Source of the DNA: Peptococcaceae bacterium
GTDB taxonomy: Bacteria; Bacillota; Peptococcia; DRI-13; PHAD01
Direction: 5' to 3'
Assembly: GCA_024655825.1 (NCBI GenBank)
Contig: JANLFJ010000014.1
Span: forward strand, 1 to 64,000
DNA: 64,000 nucleotides
A model generated the notes under the pieces. The model did not search any database. It had not been told where the DNA came from and was given only the letters and a program-made list of their open reading frames with translations. A program made the translations under genes and the position numbers. Shown here one piece after another: positions 15,263 to 28,624 of the stretch; position 1 is the stretch's first letter, and each line of letters begins with the position of its first letter.

Positions 15263-15525
15263 TGTGGGAGATCGAATTCACCAGACGCGCGGTAAAAGAC
15301 GTCGAACTAATCAAGCGTGCAGGATTAAAGGAAAATGTCCTTGGGTTGCTCGAAATCTTAAAGGTAAACCCTTACCAGACTCCGCCGCCTTACGAAAAGC
15401 TGGTAGGCGACCTGGAGGGCGCTTATTCCCGAAGGATAAACATAAAGCACCGTTTGGTATATTCTGTCGACAAGGACAGGCGTTGCGTTAGGATTCTGCG
15501 GCTTTGGACGCACTACGAAGAATGA
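15262..15525 (+). CDS. yoeB: YoeB/Txe-family mRNA-interferase toxin
   Basis: This 87-residue protein starts at ATG 15262, which overlaps the antitoxin stop. The RelE/YoeB fold is recognisable from PYEKLVGDLEGAYSRRINIK, HRLVYSVDKD and the C-terminal LWTHYEE. The family cleaves mRNA in the ribosome, with catalytic Glu, Arg and His (the E/R pair and terminal HY are present). All hallmarks of an intact toxin are visible. Confidence 0.88.
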   Translation: MWEIEFTRRAVKDVELIKRAGLKENVLGLLEILKVNPYQTPPPYEKLVGDLEGAYSRRINIKHRLVYSVDKDRRCVRILRLWTHYEE

Positions 15526-15543: not shown

Positions 15544-16296
15544 GTGGCAGCCAGGGAGAAGCTGAAAATAATCGACGGCTTAAAAAGCAGGCTTGACGCG
15601 CTGCGCCCACTTCCGCCACCGGCGGCGGCCAGGCTCCGCGAATACTACCTGGTGGAGTGGACGCACCACTCCACGGCGCTCGAAGGCAACACGCTGAACC
15701 TCCGGGAAACCAAAGTCGTGCTGGAAGGCATCACCGTCGGCGGCAAGTCGCTGAAGGAACACCTGGAGATCATCGACCACCGGGACGCTATAGACTATCT
15801 TGAGGATTATCTGGCTCAAAAACGCCCGCTGACCGAGGTGTTCATCCGCGACCTCCACCGCCTGGTCACCAAAAACACCCTGCCGCCGAAGGAGTCGGGG
15901 GCTTACCGGGAGGTCGAGGTGGCCATCTCGGGAACCAGGTATAAACCTCCGCCTCACTTCGCGGTCAATCACCTGGTGAAGGAGATGGTCGATGAATACA
16001 ACAGCCTGGCCAAAGTGATGCACCCGGTCGACCGGGCGGCGTGGCTCCACCTGAAGTTCGTTACCATCCACCCCTTCATCGACGGCAACGGCCGCACCGG
16101 GAGGCTGCTCCTCAATTTTTCGCTGATGAAAGACGGCTACCCGCCGGCGATCATCGAGCGGGGGATGCGCGATCGGTATCTCGAAGCGATCGAGGCGTAC
16201 CAGGCCGACAATTCGGTGGAAATGTTCTCCGACCTGGTGGCCGACTGCGTGGAGATAAGCCTCAAGGTACACCTGGCCTCAGCCAAAGACAAATAA
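15544..16296 (+). CDS. fic: Fic-family AMP transferase with N-terminal inhibitory motif
   Basis: This 250-residue protein has GTG 15544 as its start, 18 bases after yoeB. The catalytic Fic motif HPFIDGNGRTGR (residues about 178-189) is complete. Residues about 41-47 read STALEGN, matching the class II inhibitory helix [ST]xxxE[GN], so the enzyme should be auto-inhibited. Fic proteins transfer AMP or other nucleotides to target-protein hydroxyls. Its position directly behind a toxin-antitoxin pair and before a terminator suggests an accessory stress gene in that operon. Confidence 0.88.
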   Translation: MAAREKLKIIDGLKSRLDALRPLPPPAAARLREYYLVEWTHHSTALEGNTLNLRETKVVLEGITVGGKSLKEHLEIIDHRDAIDYLEDYLAQKRPLTEVFIRDLHRLVTKNTLPPKESGAYREVEVAISGTRYKPPPHFAVNHLVKEMVDEYNSLAKVMHPVDRAAWLHLKFVTIHPFIDGNGRTGRLLLNFSLMKDGYPPAIIERGMRDRYLEAIEAYQADNSVEMFSDLVADCVEISLKVHLASAKDK

Positions 16297-16312
16297 CGCT
16301 TGCGAGAACCCG

Positions 16313-16347
16313 ACGCGGGAGACGAAACCCCGCGTTTTTTCTTTTTT
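16313..16347 (+). terminator. intrinsic terminator after fic
   Basis: A 7-bp stem (ACGCGGG/CCCGCGT) is followed by TTTTTTCTTTTTT. It separates the toxin-antitoxin/Fic unit from tad set B. Confidence 0.85.
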
Positions 16348-16376
16348 ACAGAAAAGATTTTTCGGAGGTGGGAAAC

Positions 16377-16922
16377 ATTCTTGAGCGCACGTTTTTCTTT
16401 TTCGGCTGTATAGCGCCCGCTCTGGCGATAGCCTGCGTTGACGTCAAGAAACAAATCATTCCCGACAAGATAACCTGCCCCATGATCGCGCTGGGGCTTT
16501 TGTATGCCCTGGCGACCGGGAAGATAATGGACGCCCTGGCGGGAGCCGCAATCTGCTTCGGGCTGTTCTTCTTCGTCGGGCTGCTGGGCGGCGTCGGGGG
16601 AGGGGACTTGAAGTTCGCGACCGCCCTCGGGACCTGGTTCGGTTTCTACGGCTCCTTAACCGTAATCTTCCTGGCCTCGGTCCTCGGTCTGGCCTGGGGA
16701 GTGGTCAAGATGCTCAGGGCCAGGGGGCTGGGGGAAACGCTGGGGTGGTTCAAAGGGACGCTGTTCGGTTTCTGGTTGATGGCGCGCGGCCAGAGGGACA
16801 ACCCTTTCCTGCCGCGACTTCCCGAAGACGACGACGAACCCGCCCCCGACACCGCCCTACCCTTCGGCGCGTTTCTGGCGGCGGCGGTGCTGTTGGTGTG
16901 GCTCGGTTCGCCAAAAATTTAG
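16377..16922 (+). CDS. A24 prepilin peptidase 1 (apparent ATT start)
   Basis: This 181-residue polytopic protein carries the two catalytic Asp motifs of type IV/Tad prepilin peptidases. The first is in ACVDVKKQIIPDKI (about residues 20-33) and the second in GVGGGDLKFA (about 72-81). The N-terminal methylase domain of full PilD is absent, as in the Tad-specific TadV/CpaA class. No ATG, GTG or TTG gives the first helix at a sensible distance. ATT 16377 lies 8 bases after GGAGG and is the best start. The C-terminal part has a final membrane helix. Confidence 0.78.
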   Translation: MLERTFFFFGCIAPALAIACVDVKKQIIPDKITCPMIALGLLYALATGKIMDALAGAAICFGLFFFVGLLGGVGGGDLKFATALGTWFGFYGSLTVIFLASVLGLAWGVVKMLRARGLGETLGWFKGTLFGFWLMARGQRDNPFLPRLPEDDDEPAPDTALPFGAFLAAAVLLVWLGSPKI

Positions 16923-16939
16923 AGAGAAAGGGGTGACCT

Positions 16940-17464
16940 ATCCTGGTAACGCTGTTCGGCTTTCTAATCCCTAGCCTTGCGCTGGTCTACACCGACGCGA
17001 GACACTACCGTCTGCCCAACCTGATAGTGTACCCTCTCTGGCTGGGCGGCCTGGCTTGGTCCGCGTACCAGCGCGATCTTCTGTTTTCGCTCTCCGGTTC
17101 TCTCGTGGGGTTCGGCCTGCTGTTTTTGGTCAGGCTCCTGTTCGCGTTCTATTCCGATCAGGGAGAAAGCAGGGTGCAGCCGATGGGCGGCGGCGACATC
17201 AAGTGCGCCGGGATGATCGGGGCCTGGCTGGGGCCGCAGGGCGTCCTGCTGGTCGTCCTCATCGGCTCGCTTTTAGGGATAGCCTGGGGGATGGGCAGGT
17301 TGTGGCTTTCCAAGTCGCTAGGCGTCTGGATTCTCACGTTCGGCATTAAAAAAGACGCGCCGGATACCTTCGACGATCCCCGGGTGGTTCCCGCCGGGGC
17401 CTGCCTGGTGGTCGCCGCGTGGACAGTGTGGATGATGGGAGGCGGAATTAGTGCGGTTTTTTAG
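16940..17464 (+). CDS. A24 prepilin peptidase 2 (apparent ATC or CTG start)
   Basis: This 174-residue polytopic protein has catalytic Asp motifs in LVYTDARHYRLPN (about residues 16-28) and GGGDIKCAGM (about 85-94). The frame opens after a TGA at 16934-16936. The only start-like codons before the first catalytic motif are ATC 16940 and CTG 16943, just behind AAAGGGGTG. It is a diverged homologue of the preceding gene, so the locus has two peptidases, perhaps for Flp pilins and pseudopilins. The end overlaps cpaB by 14 bases. Confidence 0.75.
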   Translation: MLVTLFGFLIPSLALVYTDARHYRLPNLIVYPLWLGGLAWSAYQRDLLFSLSGSLVGFGLLFLVRLLFAFYSDQGESRVQPMGGGDIKCAGMIGAWLGPQGVLLVVLIGSLLGIAWGMGRLWLSKSLGVWILTFGIKKDAPDTFDDPRVVPAGACLVVAAWTVWMMGGGISAVF

Positions 17465-18200
17465 CAGAACCGAACGAGTCATCGTCGGTTCGGAAAAAAA
17501 GACCCCCTGGGCCTTGATCGCCGCGGGGGTAACCGCCGCCGCGATCTGCGGCGGAACCATATTCTTCTTGCAGCAGCAGGTGAAAGCGCAGACCCGGCTG
17601 TATCTCGCTCCGGTGGCCAAAGTCACCATCCCCGCCGGGGCTTTGATAACCGAAAGGGACGTAGCCGACGAGCAGGTGAAGTACGTCCTTGAGAACGTGG
17701 CGGCGAGCGCCACGGAGGTAGTCGGGAAAAGGGCTGCCTCCACCATCTACCAGGGCGAGCAGATACGGCGCGAGCGATTGACCGATACCGCCGCCGACCG
17801 CCAGGAGGTGGCCATCAACATCGACCTGGCCCGTTCCGGGCTGGTGTCTCCGGGCGACCTGGTGGACGTATACTTCCTGCGGCAGGACACAAGCTGGACG
17901 CCCCAGGGGGAGCTGGTGGCCCAGAACGCGGTGGTCAAATCCCTGCGCGGGGCTGACGGCAGCCTGGCCAGGGAGGGAGTGCCGCCGGCCATCGCCCTTT
18001 TGCTGGTAAAACCCGAGGAAGCGTCCAAGGTGGTCTACGGCTCTATGAAGGAGAAGATATACTACGCCCTGGTCAAGAAGTACAAGGAAACCGAGCAGAC
18101 AGTGGCCCCGACGCCTCCGCCGGCGGGAACGGGACTTATGCAGACGGCCCAAGACCTGTTAAAGGGGGTCGGTAGCGTTGTTCAACCGACGGCCCGTTAA
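17451..18200 (+). CDS. cpaB: CpaB/RcpC-like pilus assembly protein
   Basis: This 249-residue protein has an N-terminal membrane anchor (about 20-42). An SAF domain follows (about 55-120, APVAKVTIPAGALITERDV), then a RcpC/CpaB domain (about 120-215, LARSGLVSPGDLVDVYFL). In Gram-negatives CpaB works with the secretin. Here no secretin is present, as in monoderm Tad loci, so it probably acts at the cell wall. GTG 17451 follows GGGAGGCGG. It overlaps genes on both sides, indicating tight translational coupling. Confidence 0.85.
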   Translation: MRFFSRTERVIVGSEKKTPWALIAAGVTAAAICGGTIFFLQQQVKAQTRLYLAPVAKVTIPAGALITERDVADEQVKYVLENVAASATEVVGKRAASTIYQGEQIRRERLTDTAADRQEVAINIDLARSGLVSPGDLVDVYFLRQDTSWTPQGELVAQNAVVKSLRGADGSLAREGVPPAIALLLVKPEEASKVVYGSMKEKIYYALVKKYKETEQTVAPTPPPAGTGLMQTAQDLLKGVGSVVQPTAR

Positions 18201-19530
18201 ACCCGAGCGCGAAAGCACCTTCGAGGAGATCGAAGCCTACATCCAGGACGTGATAACCGGCGAGCAATACTGGTCCGAGGAGGAAGTGTCGGAAAGACAG
18301 GGCCTCCTGCAGAACGTGCTGGCCGGTATGCCGACCGCCCACCTGAAGCTGATAAACCTCATAAAGGACCTGCTGTTAAACGAGGAGCTTAAGCTCCTAA
18401 AGGGAGTGAACCTGGCCGGCAGGGACATAGACTCCCTTGCCGAGGAAATCTACCGGCGGAACTGGGGTCTGGGAATCCTGGAGGAATACTACCGCGACAA
18501 AAGTATAGACGAAATCCGGGTGAACGGTCCAGGGCCGGGGCAGGTATACCTGGTGAGGCGCGGAGTGAGCGAGCCGGCCGAGAGGTATTTCGAGGACGAG
18601 CAGGAGATAAAGGTCATAGCCCGGCGGCTTTTGATGCACGACATAGCGGTCGGGCTTGACCAGTCCCAACCCCTGGCGGAGAGCATGAGGAAGGACGGCA
18701 CGCGCGTAACCGCGACCTGCCCGCCGGTGACCGAATACTGGACGTTCGTGCTGAGGAAGCACGACACCTTCGAGATGACGCCGGAGAACCTTGAGCGGCA
18801 CGGCACCATAAGCCGCCGCGCCTGGGATATGCTGGCGGCGTTCGCCAGGTACGGGGTCAACCTGCTAATCGCCGGGGGCACCAACACCGGCAAGACCCAC
18901 CTGTTAAGACGCCTGGTAGCCGAGAGCAGCCCCAAGAGGAGGATAATCGCCATCGAAACTGACCGTGAATTGAACCTAAAAAGGCACTATCCCGAACGGG
19001 ACTGTGTGGAGTTCGAGGAGCATTCCAACGTCCAGGCGACGATGGAACGGATATTCCGCCACGTGCTGCGCTACTCCGCCGACATCCTGATCGTGGGCGA
19101 ATTTAGGGGCCACGGCGAGGCTAGGGAGGCGGTCAACGCCTGCACCCGGGGCTGCGAGGGTTCGATGGCCACGGCTCACTTCTCGACCGTCGAGGGGGCC
19201 ATCGAGGGGGCCGCCAAGCTCCTGATCACCGAGGGCGCGAACATACCCCTGGAGATGGCCAAGACGATGGTGGCGGCCGCCTTCAACGTGGTAATACACA
19301 TGGCCGCCAGCCGCGACCTGGGAATAAAGAAGGTCGTGCGGATAGCGGAGATAACCCCGGTGGGAGACCAGGTGGTGTGCCGCGACCTGGTGGTATGGAG
19401 ACCGTCGGGCGAGGATTACTACGAAGGCGACTGGGAGTTCGTGAACCCGCCTTCGCCGGGGCTGATCTCGCGTATGCGCCAGAACGGGCTGCCCCAGAGC
19501 GTGGCGAGGGAGTGGGGGTGGGAGGGATAA
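18178..19530 (+). CDS. cpaF: CpaF/TadA-family ATPase, set B
   Basis: This 450-residue secretion ATPase has a Walker A GGTNTGKTHLLRRL (about 240-253), an acidic box IAIETDRELNLKR, a Walker B-like SADILIVGEFRGHGEA and a His box (SMATAHFSTVEGA). The Asn and His in GGTNTGKTH replace the usual Ser and Thr, an unusual Walker A that deserves attention. TTG 18178 follows AAGGGGGTC, overlapping cpaB. It is well diverged from the set A enzyme at 2893. It is followed directly by its own TadB and TadC. Confidence 0.88.
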   Translation: MFNRRPVKPERESTFEEIEAYIQDVITGEQYWSEEEVSERQGLLQNVLAGMPTAHLKLINLIKDLLLNEELKLLKGVNLAGRDIDSLAEEIYRRNWGLGILEEYYRDKSIDEIRVNGPGPGQVYLVRRGVSEPAERYFEDEQEIKVIARRLLMHDIAVGLDQSQPLAESMRKDGTRVTATCPPVTEYWTFVLRKHDTFEMTPENLERHGTISRRAWDMLAAFARYGVNLLIAGGTNTGKTHLLRRLVAESSPKRRIIAIETDRELNLKRHYPERDCVEFEEHSNVQATMERIFRHVLRYSADILIVGEFRGHGEAREAVNACTRGCEGSMATAHFSTVEGAIEGAAKLLITEGANIPLEMAKTMVAAAFNVVIHMAASRDLGIKKVVRIAEITPVGDQVVCRDLVVWRPSGEDYYEGDWEFVNPPSPGLISRMRQNGLPQSVAREWGWEG

Positions 19531-19531
19531 G

Positions 19532-20443
19532 ATGGAAACCGCGATGATGGTCCTGGCCGGTATAAGCGCCGCCGCGTCCTTCCTGTTTCTAATCAGGGCC
19601 GGCCAGGTGAAGGCCGAAACCCTCAAAACACCATCTGCCCTGAAGAAAATCCAGAAACAGTTTCAGCGGCGGCTGGAGGGCGGCCTGCCTCCCTGGATGG
19701 AACAGTGGATGGAGCAGGCCGAGAAAAGGTCGAGAAGGGGCCAGATAAGATTCAAGCCCGTCCACTACCTGCTCATGGCGGCGGCGATGATGGCGCTGGC
19801 GGTGTTCGTGGGGTTCGTCCTGTTAAAGAACGTGGTCGCTTTCGGGATACTGGCGGCCACGGCGTTCATTCTGCCGGAACACTTCATCCGCAGCCAGGTC
19901 GAATCAAGAAGGAACCAGCTTTTGCTCCAGCTCGGGCCGGCGGTGAGGGTGCTGGCGGCCGAACACTCCGGCACCGGGCAGGTGAGCCGGGCGGTGATAA
20001 GGGTCGCGGACAAGCTCGACCCGCCGCTTAGGGACGTGTTCGCCAGGGCTGCCCGGGGATTCCTGGCGGGGCGTACCCACGACCAGATTTTCCTTCAGAT
20101 GCTCGACGACCTGGATTTCGAGTACGGCCAGATATTCGTGTACTCGCTGCGGATACTGGCCGACGACGCCCAAAAGCGGGATTTGCTCTGGTGGCTGGCG
20201 GAGCAGATCGCCTCCCAGGTGGACGACATACTCGAAGAAAAAAAGACCGTGGTTCAGGAGAGGCTGTACTCGGCGGCGGCGGTGCTGATGATGTTCCCGG
20301 TCCTGCTCGTCATGCTGGGGATATTCCCCGAGACGAAGGTTTTTCTGGTGGAGAACCCGGTGGGCCGGGCGGTGGCCTGCATCTGCCTGGCTTCGCCACT
20401 GGCCAACATTCTGTTCGACCGCATGGTCAACCGGGGAATCTGA
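19532..20443 (+). CDS. tadB: TadB-like platform protein, set B
   Basis: This 303-residue protein starts at ATG 19532, right after the cpaF stop and behind GGGAGGGATAAG. Membrane segments are at about 3-22, 75-118, 240-262 and 275-295. The cytoplasmic T2SSF bundle (about 130-225) contains GPAVRVLAAEHSGTGQVSRA. It should pair with the TadC at 20460 and the ATPase at 18178. Confidence 0.82.
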   Translation: METAMMVLAGISAAASFLFLIRAGQVKAETLKTPSALKKIQKQFQRRLEGGLPPWMEQWMEQAEKRSRRGQIRFKPVHYLLMAAAMMALAVFVGFVLLKNVVAFGILAATAFILPEHFIRSQVESRRNQLLLQLGPAVRVLAAEHSGTGQVSRAVIRVADKLDPPLRDVFARAARGFLAGRTHDQIFLQMLDDLDFEYGQIFVYSLRILADDAQKRDLLWWLAEQIASQVDDILEEKKTVVQERLYSAAAVLMMFPVLLVMLGIFPETKVFLVENPVGRAVACICLASPLANILFDRMVNRGI

Positions 20444-20459
20444 GAGGAGGTGAAGGTTC

Positions 20460-21230
20460 ATCCTAGCGGTATTGGCGGCAGGGGTGTCGGCGGGGCTGGC
20501 GGCGTTCGTCGCCGTATACCTGCTCGTCCGCGACAGACGGTTTTCCCTGCCCAGAAACGACGTCCAGAGATTGATCGAGAACATGCAGAGGAAATCCCTG
20601 AAACGAAAAGATGACCGGAACAGGGTATACCTCAACGGCGGGTGCGCCGGGGCGCTGGCGGTTATTCTGATCGCCCAGGGAAAGGTTTCGCCCGGGGGTC
20701 TTGTTCTCGGGGCGATTTTCGGGGCAGGCGCGGCCCACGTGTACCAGATGGTTGCCGGCTACTCCGCCCGGGCCAGGAGGATGCGCGAGGCGGCGCTCTT
20801 GTACCTGCTGGTGGAGATGGGGCTGAAGTCAGGCTACTCTCTGCCGCAGAGCCTGCGCAGCGCGTCGGTCATGGTTCCAGGTCTTTCCGCTCACCTGGAG
20901 AGGTGCCTGGAGGTGTGGCCGAAGAATCCTATCGAGGCGCTGGAGTATCTCAGGCTGGCGATCAACCTGCCCGAAGCCGACGCTTTCGTGACCGTGCTGA
21001 TGCAGGTGCAGGACATGGGGGCGGGGAGGCTACACGGAGCGCTCGAAGAAGGATCGCGACAGTTGAACAATCTCATGCGGGCGCTGGTTCGCAGCCAGGC
21101 GGCGGGCAAGCCGCTGGCGTTCTCGATTTTTCGGCTGCTGCCGCTGGTGGGCTGCCTGGGGATCGTGCTGGGTCCTCTGGTATACCAGATTATCGACATG
21201 GTTAAGGTTATCTTCGATGTGTTCAGTTGA
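20460..21230 (+). CDS. tadC: TadC-like platform protein, set B (apparent ATC start)
   Basis: This 256-residue protein has a hydrophobic N-terminus that begins LAVLAAGVSAGLAAFVAVYL, central membrane segments at about 58-95, a T2SSF domain (about 105-210) and a C-terminal helix (FRLLPLVGCLGIVLGPLVY). ATC 20460 lies 9 bases after AGGAGG, whereas the next conventional in-frame codon, TTG 20472, is 21 bases away. It completes the set B motor with the ATPase and TadB. Confidence 0.8.
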   Translation: MLAVLAAGVSAGLAAFVAVYLLVRDRRFSLPRNDVQRLIENMQRKSLKRKDDRNRVYLNGGCAGALAVILIAQGKVSPGGLVLGAIFGAGAAHVYQMVAGYSARARRMREAALLYLLVEMGLKSGYSLPQSLRSASVMVPGLSAHLERCLEVWPKNPIEALEYLRLAINLPEADAFVTVLMQVQDMGAGRLHGALEEGSRQLNNLMRALVRSQAAGKPLAFSIFRLLPLVGCLGIVLGPLVYQIIDMVKVIFDVFS

Positions 21231-21246: not shown

Positions 21247-21444
21247 ATGCGGAAGGTCATTGAGGAACTCAAGAAGGTCTGGAAAGAAGAATCGGGAGTG
21301 ACCATCATCGAGGCGCTGCTCTACGGCGCGGTCATAGCGACCATAGCCTATGTGAGCGTTAACGCCGTGGGGACCTACGTCAAGGGCGGTGCCAGCAACC
21401 TGGGTTCCAGTGTGAGCGGCAAACTGACTCCCACCTGGAGCTAA
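21247..21444 (+). CDS. flp: Flp-type pilin, set B
   Basis: This 65-residue prepilin has a charged leader ending EESG, cleaved before VTIIEALLYGAVIATIAYV, with Glu at mature position +5. The mature C-terminus is short and polar (KGGASNLGSSVSG). ATG 21247 follows GAGAGGGGGTGAG. A terminator follows at once, so this is the last gene of the set B motor operon. Its helix resembles that of the prepilin part at 23759. Confidence 0.82.
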   Translation: MRKVIEELKKVWKEESGVTIIEALLYGAVIATIAYVSVNAVGTYVKGGASNLGSSVSGKLTPTWS

Positions 21445-21462: not shown

Positions 21463-21500
21463 AAAGCGGCTGAGGGGTGAACCCTTCGGCCGCTTTTGCT
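21463..21500 (+). terminator. intrinsic terminator after set B flp
   Basis: AAAGCGGC pairs with GCCGCTTT, with an inner AGGGGT/ACCCTT extension and a short T run. It ends the motor-pilin unit before the antisense toxin-antitoxin island. Confidence 0.75.
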
Positions 21501-21878
21501 TTATATGGGAGGATAGTTTGCCTCTCTTTCTCTTATTCTAATCCTTCTCTCGTTGACAATCCAGAGCTGCCCTGGCGCAAAATGGTCGGATAGCTTTGGC
21601 AGCAGATCGCTGACTATTTTTAGAACAGCTTCTTTGCCTTGGCTTTTAGGGCGCAACACAATAAGTCCCATGTTTTTATCTGGAGGGTACGCGATTATGT
21701 TCGAGAAATCGTTGTCAAGCGTAATAAGGATTCTGCCTTCCTCCTGACATTTGCCTATCAGGAAGCTGTCGGCACAACCCTGGAGCTTTTCAGAATAAAC
21801 CGACTCAGCGTTGTAACCAGCTACATTGAGCATTGTCGCGACATCCAGGGGAAGGTTTTCGTCTGTTTTGAATTTCAA
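21501..21878 (-). CDS. DUF5615 PIN-like toxin candidate
   Basis: This 125-residue protein matches the DUF5615 Mut7-C/PIN-like group: KTDENLPLDVATMLNVAGYN at the start (Asp/Glu of the active site) and RILITLDNDFSN in the middle (conserved T-x-D-x-D-F). In genomes these are paired with small DUF433 proteins, as here, and considered toxin-antitoxin systems with a nuclease toxin. The frame ends at 21501 close to the flp terminator. It is transcribed against the pilus genes. Confidence 0.82.
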   Translation of the reverse strand: MKFKTDENLPLDVATMLNVAGYNAESVYSEKLQGCADSFLIGKCQEEGRILITLDNDFSNIIAYPPDKNMGLIVLRPKSQGKEAVLKIVSDLLPKLSDHFAPGQLWIVNERRIRIREREANYPPI

Positions 21879-21889
21879 GAGCCTTCCTC

Positions 21890-22114
<225 letters not shown>

Positions 22115-22153
22115 TTACCCTGCTTTCCAAATGTCTTTTGGTATTCTTAACAG

Positions 22154-22207
22154 TATCACGCTAAGCAAATGTTCGTCAAGGAAGAAGGAAGCAATATGCT
22201 ATCGCTT
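22154..22207. repeat. direct repeat R1 flanking hicBA
   Basis: About 54 bases from TATCACGCTAAGCAAATG to ATATGCTATCGCTT. They recur with about 8 differences at 22895-22948, on the other side of the HicBA pair and in the same orientation. Confidence 0.75.
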
Positions 22208-22221
22208 GCCTTCCGACTTTA

Positions 22222-22608
22222 TCACTCCAAGCCGAGCTCATGTTTCAAAGACTTCTGAAGGACTTGTGAAAAGTTGATGCCGGCTTTTTCAGCCCGGTCG
22301 TTCAGCCAACTCGGTATGGTTAGATTTTTGCGGACGGTGCGGTTGTCGTGTGCCCGGCGGTAAGCATCGAAGTCGATGTCAACCAGGGCGACGATTTCGT
22401 CGTCGGCGTGATCAGGAATTTTTATAGAAGGGGCGGGAATTGTCCTGCCGGCGTCCACTTCGCTGATACCCCACATGCCGATAGCGTCGCGCGCCATTTC
22501 GATTGCGTCCACAATATCAGCGCCCTGGGTATTGATCTCAAGATCGGGGACATAGACCACGTAACCGGTTTTGCTGGGGGTTAATATCACGGGATATGCC
22601 CTTTTCAA
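22222..22608 (-). CDS. hicB: HicB-family antitoxin
   Basis: This 128-residue protein has an N-terminal HicB fold (YPVILTPSKTGYVVYVPDLE, then IEMARDAIGMWG) and a C-terminal ribbon-helix-helix (LTIPSWLNDRAEKAGINFSQ). It would bind its promoter and mask the HicA toxin encoded just upstream on the same strand. Spacing between hicA stop and hicB start is about 30 bases. Confidence 0.88.
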   Translation of the reverse strand: MKRAYPVILTPSKTGYVVYVPDLEINTQGADIVDAIEMARDAIGMWGISEVDAGRTIPAPSIKIPDHADDEIVALVDIDFDAYRRAHDNRTVRKNLTIPSWLNDRAEKAGINFSQVLQKSLKHELGLE

Positions 22609-22640
22609 GGATATTACACCTCCATTTTTTAGTAGAGGGC

Positions 22641-22814
22641 TTATTTCAGTCCCTGTCTTTTTATGATTGCCGCGGCCAACATTTCGTCGATTTCGTTATG
22701 GCAAGGGATGGATTTTCTTTTAATGCCGTTGGTGTATATGTCGTGCTTCTTGCCCCTTCTTTCTAACCACCAGCCGTTTGTTTCCAGTTTCCGTATTAGG
22801 TCCTTCCGTTTCAT
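22641..22814 (-). CDS. hicA: HicA-family mRNA-interferase toxin
   Basis: This 57-residue protein, read on the minus strand from ATG 22814, begins MKRKDLIRKLETNGWWLER, then RRGKKHDIYTNG and SIPCHNEIDEMLA. The double-stranded-RNA-binding-like HicA fold with catalytic His in KKHD is complete. A GAGGGGATGGAACA ribosome site precedes it. Order hicA-hicB is typical. Confidence 0.85.
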   Translation of the reverse strand: MKRKDLIRKLETNGWWLERRGKKHDIYTNGIKRKSIPCHNEIDEMLAAAIIKRQGLK

Positions 22815-22987: not shown

Positions 22988-23947
22988 GTGGACAAGCGCC
23001 TGGTGGCCATCGTGCTGCCCATGTATAACGAGGAGGAATCCATACCGTCCCTGCGGGCGATGTTCGACGGGAACCTCGCCCTGCCCGAGGGCTGCGACTA
23101 CCGCATAATAGCGGTCAACGACGGCAGCGACGACCGAACGCTGGAGCTTGTCACCCGCTGGGCCAGGGATAACTGGAGAGTGTCGGCGGTTTCCCACGTC
23201 CAGAACATGGGGCTGGGGCAGGCCATCCTGACCGGGATCGGCGAGGCGGTTCGGATGCGTTCGGACGTGGTGGTGACGATGGACGCCGACGCTTCCCACC
23301 CGGGGGAGGTCATCCGCCGGCTGGTCGATGAGGTGCTGAACGAGGCGGACATAGCCATCGCTTCCCGGTTCGTAGCCGGGAGCAGGCAGGTGGGCGTTCC
23401 GCTGTATCGAAGGGCTTTGAGCGCGGGCGCGAAACTGGCGCTGCGGGCGGCGTTCCCCCTGGAAGGGGTTAGCGACTACACCATCGGTTTTCGCGCCTAC
23501 AGCGCCAGGGTGTCGGCGAAAATCATCTGCGAAGACTGGCGGTTCGCGAAGTCCCGCAGCTTCGCCTTCACCGCGGAGATGCTGCTCGGGGCGGCCGCGC
23601 ACGCGCGGAGGATAGCCGAGGTTCCGGTCTGCCTGCGCTACGACCTGAAAAAGAGCAGGAGCAAGCTGCGGCTCGCCGCGACTCTGCTCGACTACGCGAA
23701 ACTTTTCATGCGGCCCGGGCACATCCGGGCGATCAATCCGGAAGGGGGGAGGAGTGTTTTGAGATGCCTGTTGCTGGAGTTCCGAAAGGTTTTAAGAGAA
23801 GAAACCGGAGCTGGGGTGATCGACTACCTGGTGGCGACCGCGGTCATAGCGACCGTAGCCTACGTCTGCCGCAATATACTGGTAAATTCCCTGAAGGCGG
23901 CGCACAACTCTATGGTCAACAGCGTTACCAACATCACCGGAAACTGA
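22988..23947 (+). CDS. GT2 glycosyltransferase joined in frame to a Flp-like prepilin
   Basis: This 319-residue product starts at GTG 22988 behind GAGAGGAGATG. Residues about 5-240 are a GT2 (dolichol-phosphate-mannosyltransferase-like) catalytic domain: AIVLPMYNEEESIPSL, VNDGSDD, VVTMDADASHP and SDYTIGFRAYS. No stop codon separates this from residues 258-319, which look like a complete Flp prepilin: REETGAGVIDYLVATAVIAT, hydrophobic helix, short polar tail. An internal TTG at 23759 with its own GGGGGGAGG suggests the pilin is also made alone. The GT could modify pilins. Whether the fusion form exists is unknown. Confidence 0.75.
   Translation: MDKRLVAIVLPMYNEEESIPSLRAMFDGNLALPEGCDYRIIAVNDGSDDRTLELVTRWARDNWRVSAVSHVQNMGLGQAILTGIGEAVRMRSDVVVTMDADASHPGEVIRRLVDEVLNEADIAIASRFVAGSRQVGVPLYRRALSAGAKLALRAAFPLEGVSDYTIGFRAYSARVSAKIICEDWRFAKSRSFAFTAEMLLGAAAHARRIAEVPVCLRYDLKKSRSKLRLAATLLDYAKLFMRPGHIRAINPEGGRSVLRCLLLEFRKVLREETGAGVIDYLVATAVIATVAYVCRNILVNSLKAAHNSMVNSVTNITGN
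23744..23761 (+). promoter_or_regulatory. internal ribosome site and TTG start for a free prepilin
   Basis: GGGGGGAGG is followed 6-7 bases later by TTG 23759, in frame with the glycosyltransferase. Translation from here gives a 62-residue prepilin (MRCLLLEFRKVLREETG, then the AGVIDYLVA helix) ending at 23947. A ribosome site this strong inside a gene is unlikely by chance. Confidence 0.65.
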
Positions 23948-24381
23948 TCTTCGGGCAAAGAGGGATGAGCCTGATCGAGTTCCTCCTCATCTTCGTCGTC
24001 ATCGCCTACCTTTCCTTCCAGGCGACCGACCTGGCGCTGATTCTGGGCCAGCACCAGGGCGCGAAGCACCTCCTCAAGCAGTATGCCGACCGGGTGAGGT
24101 TGAACGGCAGGCTCTCCAGTACCGACGAGACGGAATTCAGGAATAAGATGACCCAGCTGGGCCTGACCGTGGAGAGCATCGACACCCAGAAGGAGTCCGA
24201 GGGAGAGCCGCGGATACTGCGCTCGAACGACCCGGTGGCCAGCACCATACCGATTACGGTGGTTTGCAAGCCCGTTCAGCGCCCGTTCAAGGTAGGCGCT
24301 CTCATAGGAGGTGATTCGGTCGGTGACAGCTGGAGGATACGGTTGCAGATCACGGTTTTTTCCGAGCGGATCGACCCTTAA
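23947..24381 (+). CDS. prepilin-like protein (apparent ATC start overlapping upstream stop)
   Basis: The 144-residue frame beginning at ATC 23947 overlaps the previous stop as TGATC and gives a prepilin leader IFGQRG followed by MSLIEFLLIFVVIAYL, with Glu at mature +5. If ATG 23965 were used instead, the leader would vanish and the purine-rich site would abut the codon. The soluble part (about 40-140) is a TadE-like extracytoplasmic domain. It is coupled to the prepilin/GT gene upstream and overlaps the next gene. Confidence 0.68.
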   Translation: MFGQRGMSLIEFLLIFVVIAYLSFQATDLALILGQHQGAKHLLKQYADRVRLNGRLSSTDETEFRNKMTQLGLTVESIDTQKESEGEPRILRSNDPVASTIPITVVCKPVQRPFKVGALIGGDSVGDSWRIRLQITVFSERIDP

Positions 24382-24998: not shown

Positions 24999-27164
24999 GT
25001 GAAGAAAATAGTTCTAATCCTGACGCTGCTGGTCGTCTTTTCATCCCGGCCGGCGCTGGGTGCGGTGTGGGATTACGGCATAGGCGTCGCCGACACGCCA
25101 GCGACAATCGATTCTTCGGCTACCGGCGCGGCTATCGACACCGCGGCCCGGGAGATAAAACTGCCTTCCACCCTGGGCAACCTGGTTTCCTTCTGGGAGT
25201 CGGGCGATCTGGAGTATGTGGTCTTGACCAGCAGCGGCGCGAGGCACTACTCGTTCAACGGCTCGTCGATGGTGGAGAACCAGCTCCTAAACGCGAGCGT
25301 TTCAAACCCGGTATCGCTGGCCGCGTCTAATCCCTTTCCCGACGTCATCGTAGCCGACGGCACCGGGATCAGGCACTTCTCCTTCGGCGGTTCCGGTATG
25401 CTGGAGAACCCGGCCCTGTCCGTGGCCGGTCTTACCGGGGTGGTGACGGTGGGGGCTACGGGAACCAACGAGGTGGCCGCCCTGGTCGGGAACGCCGTCC
25501 AGCACTACAGCTTCAACGGAGCCAGCATGGTGAGAAACAGCCTTTTGGAACCCGCTTTATCGGCCAACCCGCTTTCCCTGGCGCTCGGCAGCGGCGGGTA
25601 CGACGTGGCCGTCCTGGAGGCCAACCAGGTGAGGTGGTACTGCTTCACCGGTTCGGGCATGGCCGAAAACCCCGCCCTGGCCGTGACCGGGCTCAACAAC
25701 CCGGTGGCCCTGGCGGTCGCCGATCCCGTCTCGGGCTACGACCTGTCGGTGGTGGAAGGGAACCAGGTAAAGAGCTACAGCTACACCGGGGGATCAATGG
25801 CGTACAACTCGGCCCTGTCGGTGACGTCCGGGCTTACCAGCCCGAAAGCGGTCGCTATCAGGCCGGGGAGCTTCGACCGCCTGATAGTCGACGGGAACGA
25901 AGTGAAGTATTACTCCTGGACCGGTTCGGCGCTGGTATTAAACCCCAGCCTGTCGGTCACGGTGAGCGACATAATAAGCGGCGGAAACTACGCGGCGTCC
26001 GCGGCGGCGCAGTCTTTGGCCTTCGACCCGGGTTACAACGTGAGCTACGTCCGGGTGAGGTCGGCCCACGAGCTGCCCGACCAGACCTCAGTGACCTACT
26101 CGGTGACCGCCGACGGGGTGAACTGGGTAGAGCGGTGGAGGGTGCGGGGAACGCCGACCGGCACGGTTCTGGAGGTGTTTTCGGGGGGTTCGTGGTTGCC
26201 GATAGGGAGCGCCAGCGACGCCCTGCCTTCGGCGGACAACGCCCAACTGTGGGCGAACGTCCAGAGCGGCCGCGCGGTCAAGTGGAAAGCGGTGCTGGCC
26301 ACCACCAACCCCGCCGTGACGCCCAGGATAGCTACCAATCCCAGGGGAGGGGTGGCGGTGCGGTGGGACACCAACAGCGCTCCCAACCCGCCGGGCGTGT
26401 CGTCCAGCGGAGGGTGTTATCTAACCACCACACCGACCTTCACCTGGACCTACAGCGACCCCGACGGCGATTCCCAGGGATCTTGCCAGGTGCAGGTGAG
26501 GACGATCGGAGGAATTCTGGTGTATGACAGCGGGCGGGTGTATAACAGCAGCCACTCGTTCACCCTGCCGACCAGCGCCCAGCCCGACGTGGCCGGTCCG
26601 CTCTGGAGTTCGGGGGAGTACCAGTTCACCGTGCGGGTGAAGGTCTGGGACAGCAACGGTTTCGAGTCCGCGTGGTCGGGAGACGTCGGTTTCTGCGTGG
26701 TGGGTTTCGAGCGACCGCGCGTGGCGGAGATCGTAAGCCCGCCGGCGGGACAGCCCGCGCCCGACCCTTTAACCCCTTCGACGCACGTCGTGATCGCGCC
26801 AGGGACGGATGCTTCCAGCCTGCCCAGGGCGAAGGCCGGCGCGCGGGTAAAGGTGATCGTAGACAGCGTGGGGCCGCTCAATTCGGTTGCCGTGGAGTTC
26901 CCCTACGGGGCTTATCAGTCGTTCAAAGGGGACATCAGTCAACTGAACCCGGCCGGCAGCAAGGTCAACCGCTGGACGGTGGACTTCTGGACCGACGCCA
27001 GCGTGGAGCGCTGCCCGTCCGGTACGGCGGTGGGCATGGACTGGCAGGGTGTATCGGGCGCTGGCAACCCGCGGCTGAAAACGCCCGACTACGCTGCCGG
27101 GGTAATCCAGATACAGGGGACGGTGCTTGAGGATTGGTTCGTGATCTTGAAAGGGAAGGATTGA
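24999..27164 (+). CDS. secreted repeat propeller-like protein
   Basis: This 721-residue protein has a signal peptide (VKKIVLILTLLVVFSSRPAL). About seven near-repeats of 45-50 residues span 60-330, each centred on a Y-S/C-F-x-G-S-x-M-x-x-N-P-x-L pattern (for example HYSFNGSSMVENQLL and HFSFGGSGMLENPAL), suggesting a beta-propeller. Ig/FN3-like domains (about 450-590) and a final beta domain follow. GTG 24999 sits 8 bases after TAGGGAGG. It overlaps the next gene (TTGA), so it is part of the pilus operon. An adhesive or tip role is possible. Confidence 0.72.
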   Translation: MKKIVLILTLLVVFSSRPALGAVWDYGIGVADTPATIDSSATGAAIDTAAREIKLPSTLGNLVSFWESGDLEYVVLTSSGARHYSFNGSSMVENQLLNASVSNPVSLAASNPFPDVIVADGTGIRHFSFGGSGMLENPALSVAGLTGVVTVGATGTNEVAALVGNAVQHYSFNGASMVRNSLLEPALSANPLSLALGSGGYDVAVLEANQVRWYCFTGSGMAENPALAVTGLNNPVALAVADPVSGYDLSVVEGNQVKSYSYTGGSMAYNSALSVTSGLTSPKAVAIRPGSFDRLIVDGNEVKYYSWTGSALVLNPSLSVTVSDIISGGNYAASAAAQSLAFDPGYNVSYVRVRSAHELPDQTSVTYSVTADGVNWVERWRVRGTPTGTVLEVFSGGSWLPIGSASDALPSADNAQLWANVQSGRAVKWKAVLATTNPAVTPRIATNPRGGVAVRWDTNSAPNPPGVSSSGGCYLTTTPTFTWTYSDPDGDSQGSCQVQVRTIGGILVYDSGRVYNSSHSFTLPTSAQPDVAGPLWSSGEYQFTVRVKVWDSNGFESAWSGDVGFCVVGFERPRVAEIVSPPAGQPAPDPLTPSTHVVIAPGTDASSLPRAKAGARVKVIVDSVGPLNSVAVEFPYGAYQSFKGDISQLNPAGSKVNRWTVDFWTDASVERCPSGTAVGMDWQGVSGAGNPRLKTPDYAAGVIQIQGTVLEDWFVILKGKD

Positions 27165-28624
27165 AGGACCTGCTTTTCCTGGCGGTGGCTTTCGCGGCGC
27201 TCCTTTTTCCCTGGCTCCTGCAGGTGGCCCTGACGCCGAAGGGGTGCGTTCCGAACGGCCACCTCATGGGCTACGAGGACTATGTGACCTTCATCGCCAA
27301 GATGGAGTGGGGGAGACTTGGGCATTGGAGCTACATCGACCGGTACACCCCCGAAATAACCGAGCCTGCCCCGATATACTTCTTCTACCTGTCGCTGGGG
27401 CACCTGGCCAAACTGAGTGGCCTTTCCACTCTGTGGGTGTTCCACCTGGCCCGCAGCCTTCTGGGGAGCCTCGCCGCCTGGGGGTGGTGGAGGTTCTGCA
27501 GGAAGCGCAGCAAATACCCTCTGCCCGCGTTCCTGCTGGGTATATGGGCGTCTTTCGGGCTTTTTGCGCTGTTCGGGCCTGATATGCGGATATACGAAAC
27601 CTACGTTCAGGGACACGCCGCCAACTTCGGGATGATCGGGTTCCCGCACTACCTGGTGGACTTCCTGGCGATCCTGGCGTTCCTGGAGGCGTACCTGGAC
27701 GGCGGGAAGAAGGCCCCTGTCCTTTCGCTGCTGGTCGGTGCGGGGCTGGGGATGGTTCACCCGTTCCTGCTGGCCCTGTTCCCGACCGTCATAATCGCGC
27801 ACGCTGCGCTTTTCGATAAGGACAGGCTAAGGGACGCCTTCCTTGTAGCTGCGTGCGCGGCGCTGGGTTCTTTGCCGTTTATTATCTCGATGTGGGCGGC
27901 CTACCAGAAGTTTGAGTGGCTGAGAATCTGGAGGAGCCAGACGGCGCACGAGACCGGTTTGCTTGGGGACGGTTTCCGGCTGGCTGTCACCTTCGGCCTG
28001 GGCGGGGCGGTAGCATGGTTTAGAATCCCGGGGGTTGTCCGCAGCGGCGAAGCGCTGGAGAGGCTGTCGGCGGTGTGGCTCGTATTGGCTGGTGTTCTCC
28101 TGGTTTTCGCTCCTATCCCCAACAGCCGGGAGTTCGGGTTCTTCCTCACAATCCCGGTGGCGATGCTCGCCGCACCCTGGCTGGTCGAATTCTCGCGGCG
28201 GGTGAATACCCTGAAAGTCAACCTGATGCTGCCGGCGCTGGTGATCGCCTGCTGCGCCTGCGGGTTCCTCATGTTCGCCGAGATGTACCGGGTGACTCCC
28301 GACTCCTACCACCCGCAGGGGCTGGTGGAGGGTCTAAGGTGGCTTGAGGAAAACAGCGGCGAGAACGACGCGGCGGCCTGTACCTGGGCGACCGGCAGCG
28401 TTCTCCCGATGTATGTGACCCACCCGCGACCCTGGGTGGGTCACCAGTCCGAGACGCTGGGCTTTCTGGAGAAGGAGAAACAGGTCCTGCCGTTCTTTCG
28501 GGGCGAAATAAAGCTGCCGGTCCAGTGGGCGGTGGTCGGGAAAGGGGTTGACAGAGACATTCCGCGGCTGCCGGGGGAACCGGTCTACGAGAACGATTCG
28601 GTTGTAATATGGAGAGTGGACTGA
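27161..28624 (+). CDS. polytopic membrane protein, GT-C glycosyltransferase-like
   Basis: This 487-residue protein starts at TTG 27161, overlapping the previous stop. About ten to twelve hydrophobic segments alternate with short loops. The first extracytoplasmic loop holds GYEDYVTFIAKMEWG, an acidic/aromatic motif as in GT-C-fold lipid-linked sugar transferases. The C-terminal 100 residues are a soluble domain. With the GT2 enzyme at 22988 it could form a pilin- or surface-protein glycosylation route. The GT-C assignment is from topology and context, not a certain match. Confidence 0.6.
   Translation: MKDLLFLAVAFAALLFPWLLQVALTPKGCVPNGHLMGYEDYVTFIAKMEWGRLGHWSYIDRYTPEITEPAPIYFFYLSLGHLAKLSGLSTLWVFHLARSLLGSLAAWGWWRFCRKRSKYPLPAFLLGIWASFGLFALFGPDMRIYETYVQGHAANFGMIGFPHYLVDFLAILAFLEAYLDGGKKAPVLSLLVGAGLGMVHPFLLALFPTVIIAHAALFDKDRLRDAFLVAACAALGSLPFIISMWAAYQKFEWLRIWRSQTAHETGLLGDGFRLAVTFGLGGAVAWFRIPGVVRSGEALERLSAVWLVLAGVLLVFAPIPNSREFGFFLTIPVAMLAAPWLVEFSRRVNTLKVNLMLPALVIACCACGFLMFAEMYRVTPDSYHPQGLVEGLRWLEENSGENDAAACTWATGSVLPMYVTHPRPWVGHQSETLGFLEKEKQVLPFFRGEIKLPVQWAVVGKGVDRDIPRLPGEPVYENDSVVIWRVD

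Follow-up and report, generated by a model that had tools for sequence, protein, structure and literature searches.

In a Tad cluster of a Peptococcaceae bacterium, a GT2 glycosyltransferase (GT) and a full Flp-like prepilin were found to be encoded in one uninterrupted frame. We give an even chance to the account in which these were an ordinary GT2 gene and an ordinary gene for a minor Flp-type prepilin, and the stop of the GT was lost in this lineage. The join probably comes from an isolated loss of the stop or from one wrong letter in the sequence, and not from a new kind of machine.

Anatomy of the joined frame

The window, that is, the whole stretch of 64,000 nucleotides that was analysed, contains on its forward strand a single open frame from GTG 22988 to the stop at 23945-23947, which encodes 319 aa with zero internal stops (Table 1). 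Upstream this frame is also open as far as ATG 22910, but it is GTG 22988 that has a Shine-Dalgarno sequence, GAGAGGAG, before it. An earlier reading of this DNA made from the sequence alone (hereafter the sequence-only reading) had described a GT2 domain and a full Flp-like prepilin in an uninterrupted frame at 22988-23947, and this was confirmed, as were its coordinates and its lengths of 319 and 62 residues. It had also placed a ribosome site and TTG 23759 at the junction, and these are indeed there, as GGAGG and a 6-nt spacer at 23748-23761. What it had missed was that six G stand in a row at the boundary and that the next frame has a TGA at 23760. Nothing like a dedicated linker was seen: the last GT position that is invariant among the homologues is L239, and residue 258 is where the pilin begins. 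When the fusion was modelled with AlphaFold without alignments the mean pLDDT was 41, which is too poor for a fold search.

Table 1. Coordinates in the window of the joined frame, of its junction and of the neighbouring Tad features
Feature	Position	Strand
GT2 glycosyltransferase part, polyprenyl-phosphate sugar synthase type; 257 codons; catalytic D99xD101 present	22988..23758	+
Flp-like prepilin, 62 aa; expected cut after Gly 17 (free prepilin) = 274 (fusion)	23759..23947	+
GGAGG Shine-Dalgarno, 6-nt spacer and prepilin TTG start	23748..23761	+
Six-G run at gene boundary	23744..23749	+
+1-frame TGA that overlaps the prepilin TTG as TTGA; may be the original GT stop	23760..23762	+
Other Flp-like prepilin (pilin 1), 65 aa, separate gene	21247..21444	+
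Terminator-like stem, 15 pairs, closing the tadABC-pilin unit ahead of the GT	21463..21496	+
Short TadE-like membrane protein, next gene downstream; assigned by position and sequence, without a Pfam match	23965..24381	+
Peptidase_A24 prepilin peptidase that may cut the fusion	16041..16922	+
Second Peptidase_A24 protein	17027..17464	+
Polytopic membrane protein, putative GT-C partner of the GT2	27134..28624	+

The glycosyltransferase part

Pfam Glycos_transf_2 (PF00535) matches residues 8-176 with an E of 1.8e-22, the DxD is kept, with D99 and D101 invariant in the homologue alignment, and other conserved GT positions are also intact. The nearest PDB match of the GT part is the dolichol monophosphate mannose synthase 5mlz (phmmer E 4.3e-25). 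By sequence comparison the GT2 part groups with the polyprenyl-phosphate (dolichol/undecaprenyl) sugar synthases. It resembles these synthases (5mlz; PpgS, NF058614; ArnC, NF007986) in the GT2 domain at residues 6-175, in the catalytic DxD and in a total length of about 255 aa if the window GT were separate. Unlike them, it shows no membrane helix within the GT in a hydropathy analysis, the pilin helix being the only one in the 319-aa frame, it runs on into a prepilin, and it falls under every NCBIfam equivalog cut-off, with 56.9 bits against 370 for PpgS and 60.4 against 529 for ArnC.

Synthases of this type charge a lipid carrier, their acceptor being a lipid. The sequence-only reading had proposed that the fusion tethers the GT to its substrate. 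Because the acceptor of this class is a lipid and because a cleavage site separates the two parts, such tethering is unlikely, and of that interpretation it is the anatomy and the read-through after stop loss that are supported.

The prepilin part and its ribosome site

The C-terminal 62 aa open with the basic leader RCLLLEFRKVLREETG, which is 17 aa when counted from the TTG and ends in Gly, and it is thus inside the range of 6-26 aa described for prepilin leaders (PMC4471445). When the piece was aligned with five other pilins from Tad loci, this Gly was the sole column without variation. The fused prepilin has one hydrophobic helix (residues 273-291), Tyr at +6 and Asp at +5, where Glu is usual in prepilins but not obligatory (PMC10191384). 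Identity between the fused piece and the separate pilin at 21247-21444 is 35-39%, and neither of the two matched Pfam Flp_Fap (PF04964), which is why we call the fused pilin Flp-like and not a member of PF04964. Like a Flp-type (Tad) prepilin, it is short and has a leader that ends in Gly and a single hydrophobic helix of about 20 residues, and it lies in a Tad cluster where it adjoins a TadE-like gene; it departs from that type in its Asp at +5, in the missing Flp_Fap match and in that it can also be read as the C-terminal end of a frame of 319 aa.

Sites of the form GGAGG, 5-8 nucleotides and DTG occurred 56 times in the window compared to 35.6 expected, and they are also found before the starts of the cpaB-like, tadB and 24990 genes. 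At this background rate, a site of this kind on the correct strand and no more than about 20 nt from the junction would be met by chance with a probability of roughly 0.6%.

Homologues of the two parts

When 34 homologues of the GT were examined, 33 had a readable stop and in all 33 it lay at positions 244-265 of the alignment to the window GT, with a median of 255. All 33 end before any pilin, and a motif search of the 450 nt after the stop found a prepilin-like frame in none of them (0/33). The sequence-only reading had held that homologues always split, with this one a lone exception, would refute its claim, and this is essentially what was found; the 34th homologue (L178, G404) shares its frame with membrane proteins next to it and not with a pilin. 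That homologue lies on the reverse strand within an open frame of at least 1238 aa, where a flippase-like membrane part precedes the GT2, a PMT-like membrane part comes after it and an internal ATG is present at the join. It is another in-frame join in the same GT family with a different partner.

The nearest relatives of the GT, at 57-58% identity, come from one other family, where four genomes have them in open frames of 263-267 aa. The two that were read in detail are stand-alone genes beside a small DMT-type transporter. For the pilin part, a Pfam Flp_Fap search of 398 genomes of the phylum gave about 150 Flp pilins among the matches listed, a neighbouring sample since the pilin-2 type itself does not match Flp_Fap; the longest frame among these listed matches was 195 aa and none was in a frame of 200 aa or more. 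A GT2-pilin fusion was thus found in no second lineage, neither among the 34 GT homologues nor among the approximately 150 listed Flp pilins. Searches for similar DNA in plasmids found none, viral contigs gave no relatives and no match to the exact junction pattern, a scan of genome contigs returned distant GTs only, and no GT-pilin fusion was found in the literature searched.

The join therefore sits where the homologues end, and this supports the other proposal of the sequence-only reading, that read-through evolved after the loss of a stop codon.

The missing stop

The junction has six G at 23744-23749 followed by AGGAGTGTTTTGAGATG. With one G fewer, the GT would read GGG GGA GGA GTG TTT TGA and would end after 257 aa at TGA 23760, which would overlap the start of the pilin as TTGA. 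A single substitution, TAA to GAA at 23741, is the alternative, before which the GT would have ended at 251 aa. The data thus indicate that a stop has disappeared close to where the GT would naturally end, and an indel in the G run and the TAA-to-GAA substitution explain the join equally well. The arrangement is like that of coupled genes with an overlapping stop and start (TTGA/ATGA type) in that the second gene has its own Shine-Dalgarno sequence and start at the end of the first, and a TGA that overlaps the TTG is present here too in the next frame. It differs from coupled genes in that here the first gene shares the frame of the second and that TGA is not used.

This raises the question whether the organism has five G, or some other small difference, so that the GT ends at TGA 23760 and the two genes are a normal TTGA-coupled pair. 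We regard such an error of sequencing or assembly as a serious possibility but one that falls well short of an even chance. A change of one base in the G6 run would restore a typical overlapping pair, with a 257-aa GT that matches the ends of the homologues, and the join is unique to this draft assembly of 98 contigs. The overlap is weak evidence, however, because any A after a TTG makes a TTGA and because the chance of meeting a stop near the expected end of the GT in one of the two other frames is sizeable. A survey of frameshifts also argues against an error. In this survey, which covered 864 kb of the 3.16 Mb and in which 295 kb of conserved coding sequence were aligned to proteins from two relatives, none of the 58 G/C runs of six or more had a frameshift, so that the rate per G/C run is at most about 5% (95% upper bound), and the approximately 447 A/T runs of six or more gave no clear case. 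Since no frameshift was seen at the 58 G/C runs in 295 kb, a real base is favoured. An error is therefore not the default explanation, but it would be a rare event, as would a true loss of the stop.

The frame breaks that the survey did find were one interrupted gene in L209 and two cases in L082; in a reading by eye, a further break was an ABC ATPase pair matched by a two-domain query and another, in L073, looks like a non-coding RNA. The interrupted gene (L209:15229-15676, in the same genome) matches long relatives on both sides and shifts frame at about 15,430-15,480, where there is no G/C run, and it may be a pseudogene or an assembly fault.

The position of the G run is exactly that of the boundary, and a few codons on the +1 frame stops at TGA 23760, which would be suitable for a switch in which fused and separate products alternate by a change in the length of G6 (phase variation) or by ribosomal slippage. 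Six G are short for a contingency tract, however, runs of six G/C are common in this genome, with 194 of exactly six in 864 kb, and a test for stable RNA structure at the junction gave no signal (z -0.07). We consider a switch very improbable indeed.

The Tad cluster around the join

By profile the Tad locus has RcpC/CpaB, a TadA-type ATPase and two A24 peptidases, and TadB- and TadC-like proteins were assigned by position and sequence (genes within 17451-21230). The two Peptidase_A24 genes adjoin in the one cluster (16041-17464, forward strand), and a Fic/DOC gene (15544-16296, forward strand) lies directly before them, its end overlapping the long open frame of the first. Pilin 1 is followed by a strong terminator-like stem (21463-21496) and then, ahead of the GT, by four genes of toxin-antitoxin type, DUF5615 (PIN-like), DUF433, HicB and HicA, on the reverse strand at 21501-22814, and the GC of this block is 0.478 compared to about 0.62 in the Tad genes. 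The unit after the block consists of the GT2, pilin 2, the TadE-like protein and further secreted and membrane proteins. Downstream, 27134-28624 encodes a polytopic membrane protein with no Pfam or PDB match and with a mean pLDDT of 43 from AlphaFold without alignments, too poor for a fold search; it is possibly a GT-C glycosyltransferase that uses the product of the GT2. In the Tad locus of another genome of the same order (G002, L057), tadC is followed by pilins and a TadE-like gene, with no GT, and the GT is therefore probably an addition to the Tad cluster of the window.

A probable tolerated loss of the stop

In a probable course of events, the Tad cluster would at first have had a stand-alone GT2 synthase gene with the gene of a minor Flp-type prepilin immediately after it. 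Either an indel of one base in the G6 run or a single substitution (e.g. TAA to GAA at 23741) would have removed the stop of the GT. The pilin would still be initiated independently from TTG 23759 with its own ribosome site, and ribosomes that finish the GT would continue to give the 319-aa fusion. The active site of prepilin peptidase is cytoplasmic, as is the leader side of the prepilin (PMC10191384), and for this reason the fusion would be expected to insert its helix with the GT in the cytoplasm, where it would act as an oversized leader. Prepilin peptidase would then cut after Gly274 and release a GT with a 17-residue tail and a mature pilin. The GT would load sugar on a lipid carrier and, with the membrane protein of 27134-28624, may perhaps serve the glycosylation of the pilus or of surface proteins. 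Because cleavage after Gly274 would give an almost normal GT and a normal pilin, loss of the stop would be nearly neutral, and because it would be nearly harmless the join can be explained without a special function.

The sequence comparisons are consistent with this stop loss in that the join falls at the ends of the homologues (33/33, 244-265) while the nearest relatives are separate, and in that the pilin has retained a strong Shine-Dalgarno sequence and start in a cluster with two A24 peptidases. Against it are the length of the leader that would have to be cut, which at 274 residues is beyond the described 6-26 aa (PMC4471445), and the Asp at +5, which departs from the usual Glu.

The same anatomy may also be viewed as a fusion kept by selection, with the GT as a giant prepilin leader made one to one with the pilin and brought in by the same insertion step, and with extra pilin from the internal start. 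The open frame, the strong internal Shine-Dalgarno sequence and the cleavage motif are all intact and the catalytic residues of the GT are kept, as this would require. It is, however, absent from every one of the 34 GT homologues and from the approximately 150 listed Flp pilins, it has no dedicated linker, and there is no evident reason why an enzyme that charges a lipid carrier should be made in a fixed ratio to the pilin; a selected fusion thus appears improbable. That the enzyme is a working 274-residue leader, prepilin peptidase serving as a polyprotein protease that frees GT and pilin while extra pilin is internally started, seems to us quite improbable as well.

Should the join prove to be an error or a stop loss of neutral effect, it calls for caution in naming fusions from single drafts at homopolymers. 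If it is real, the leaders that prepilin peptidases accept would include a folded domain of nearly 30 kDa, which would widen the 6-26 aa range, and pilin genes would be easy acceptors for read-through from upstream.
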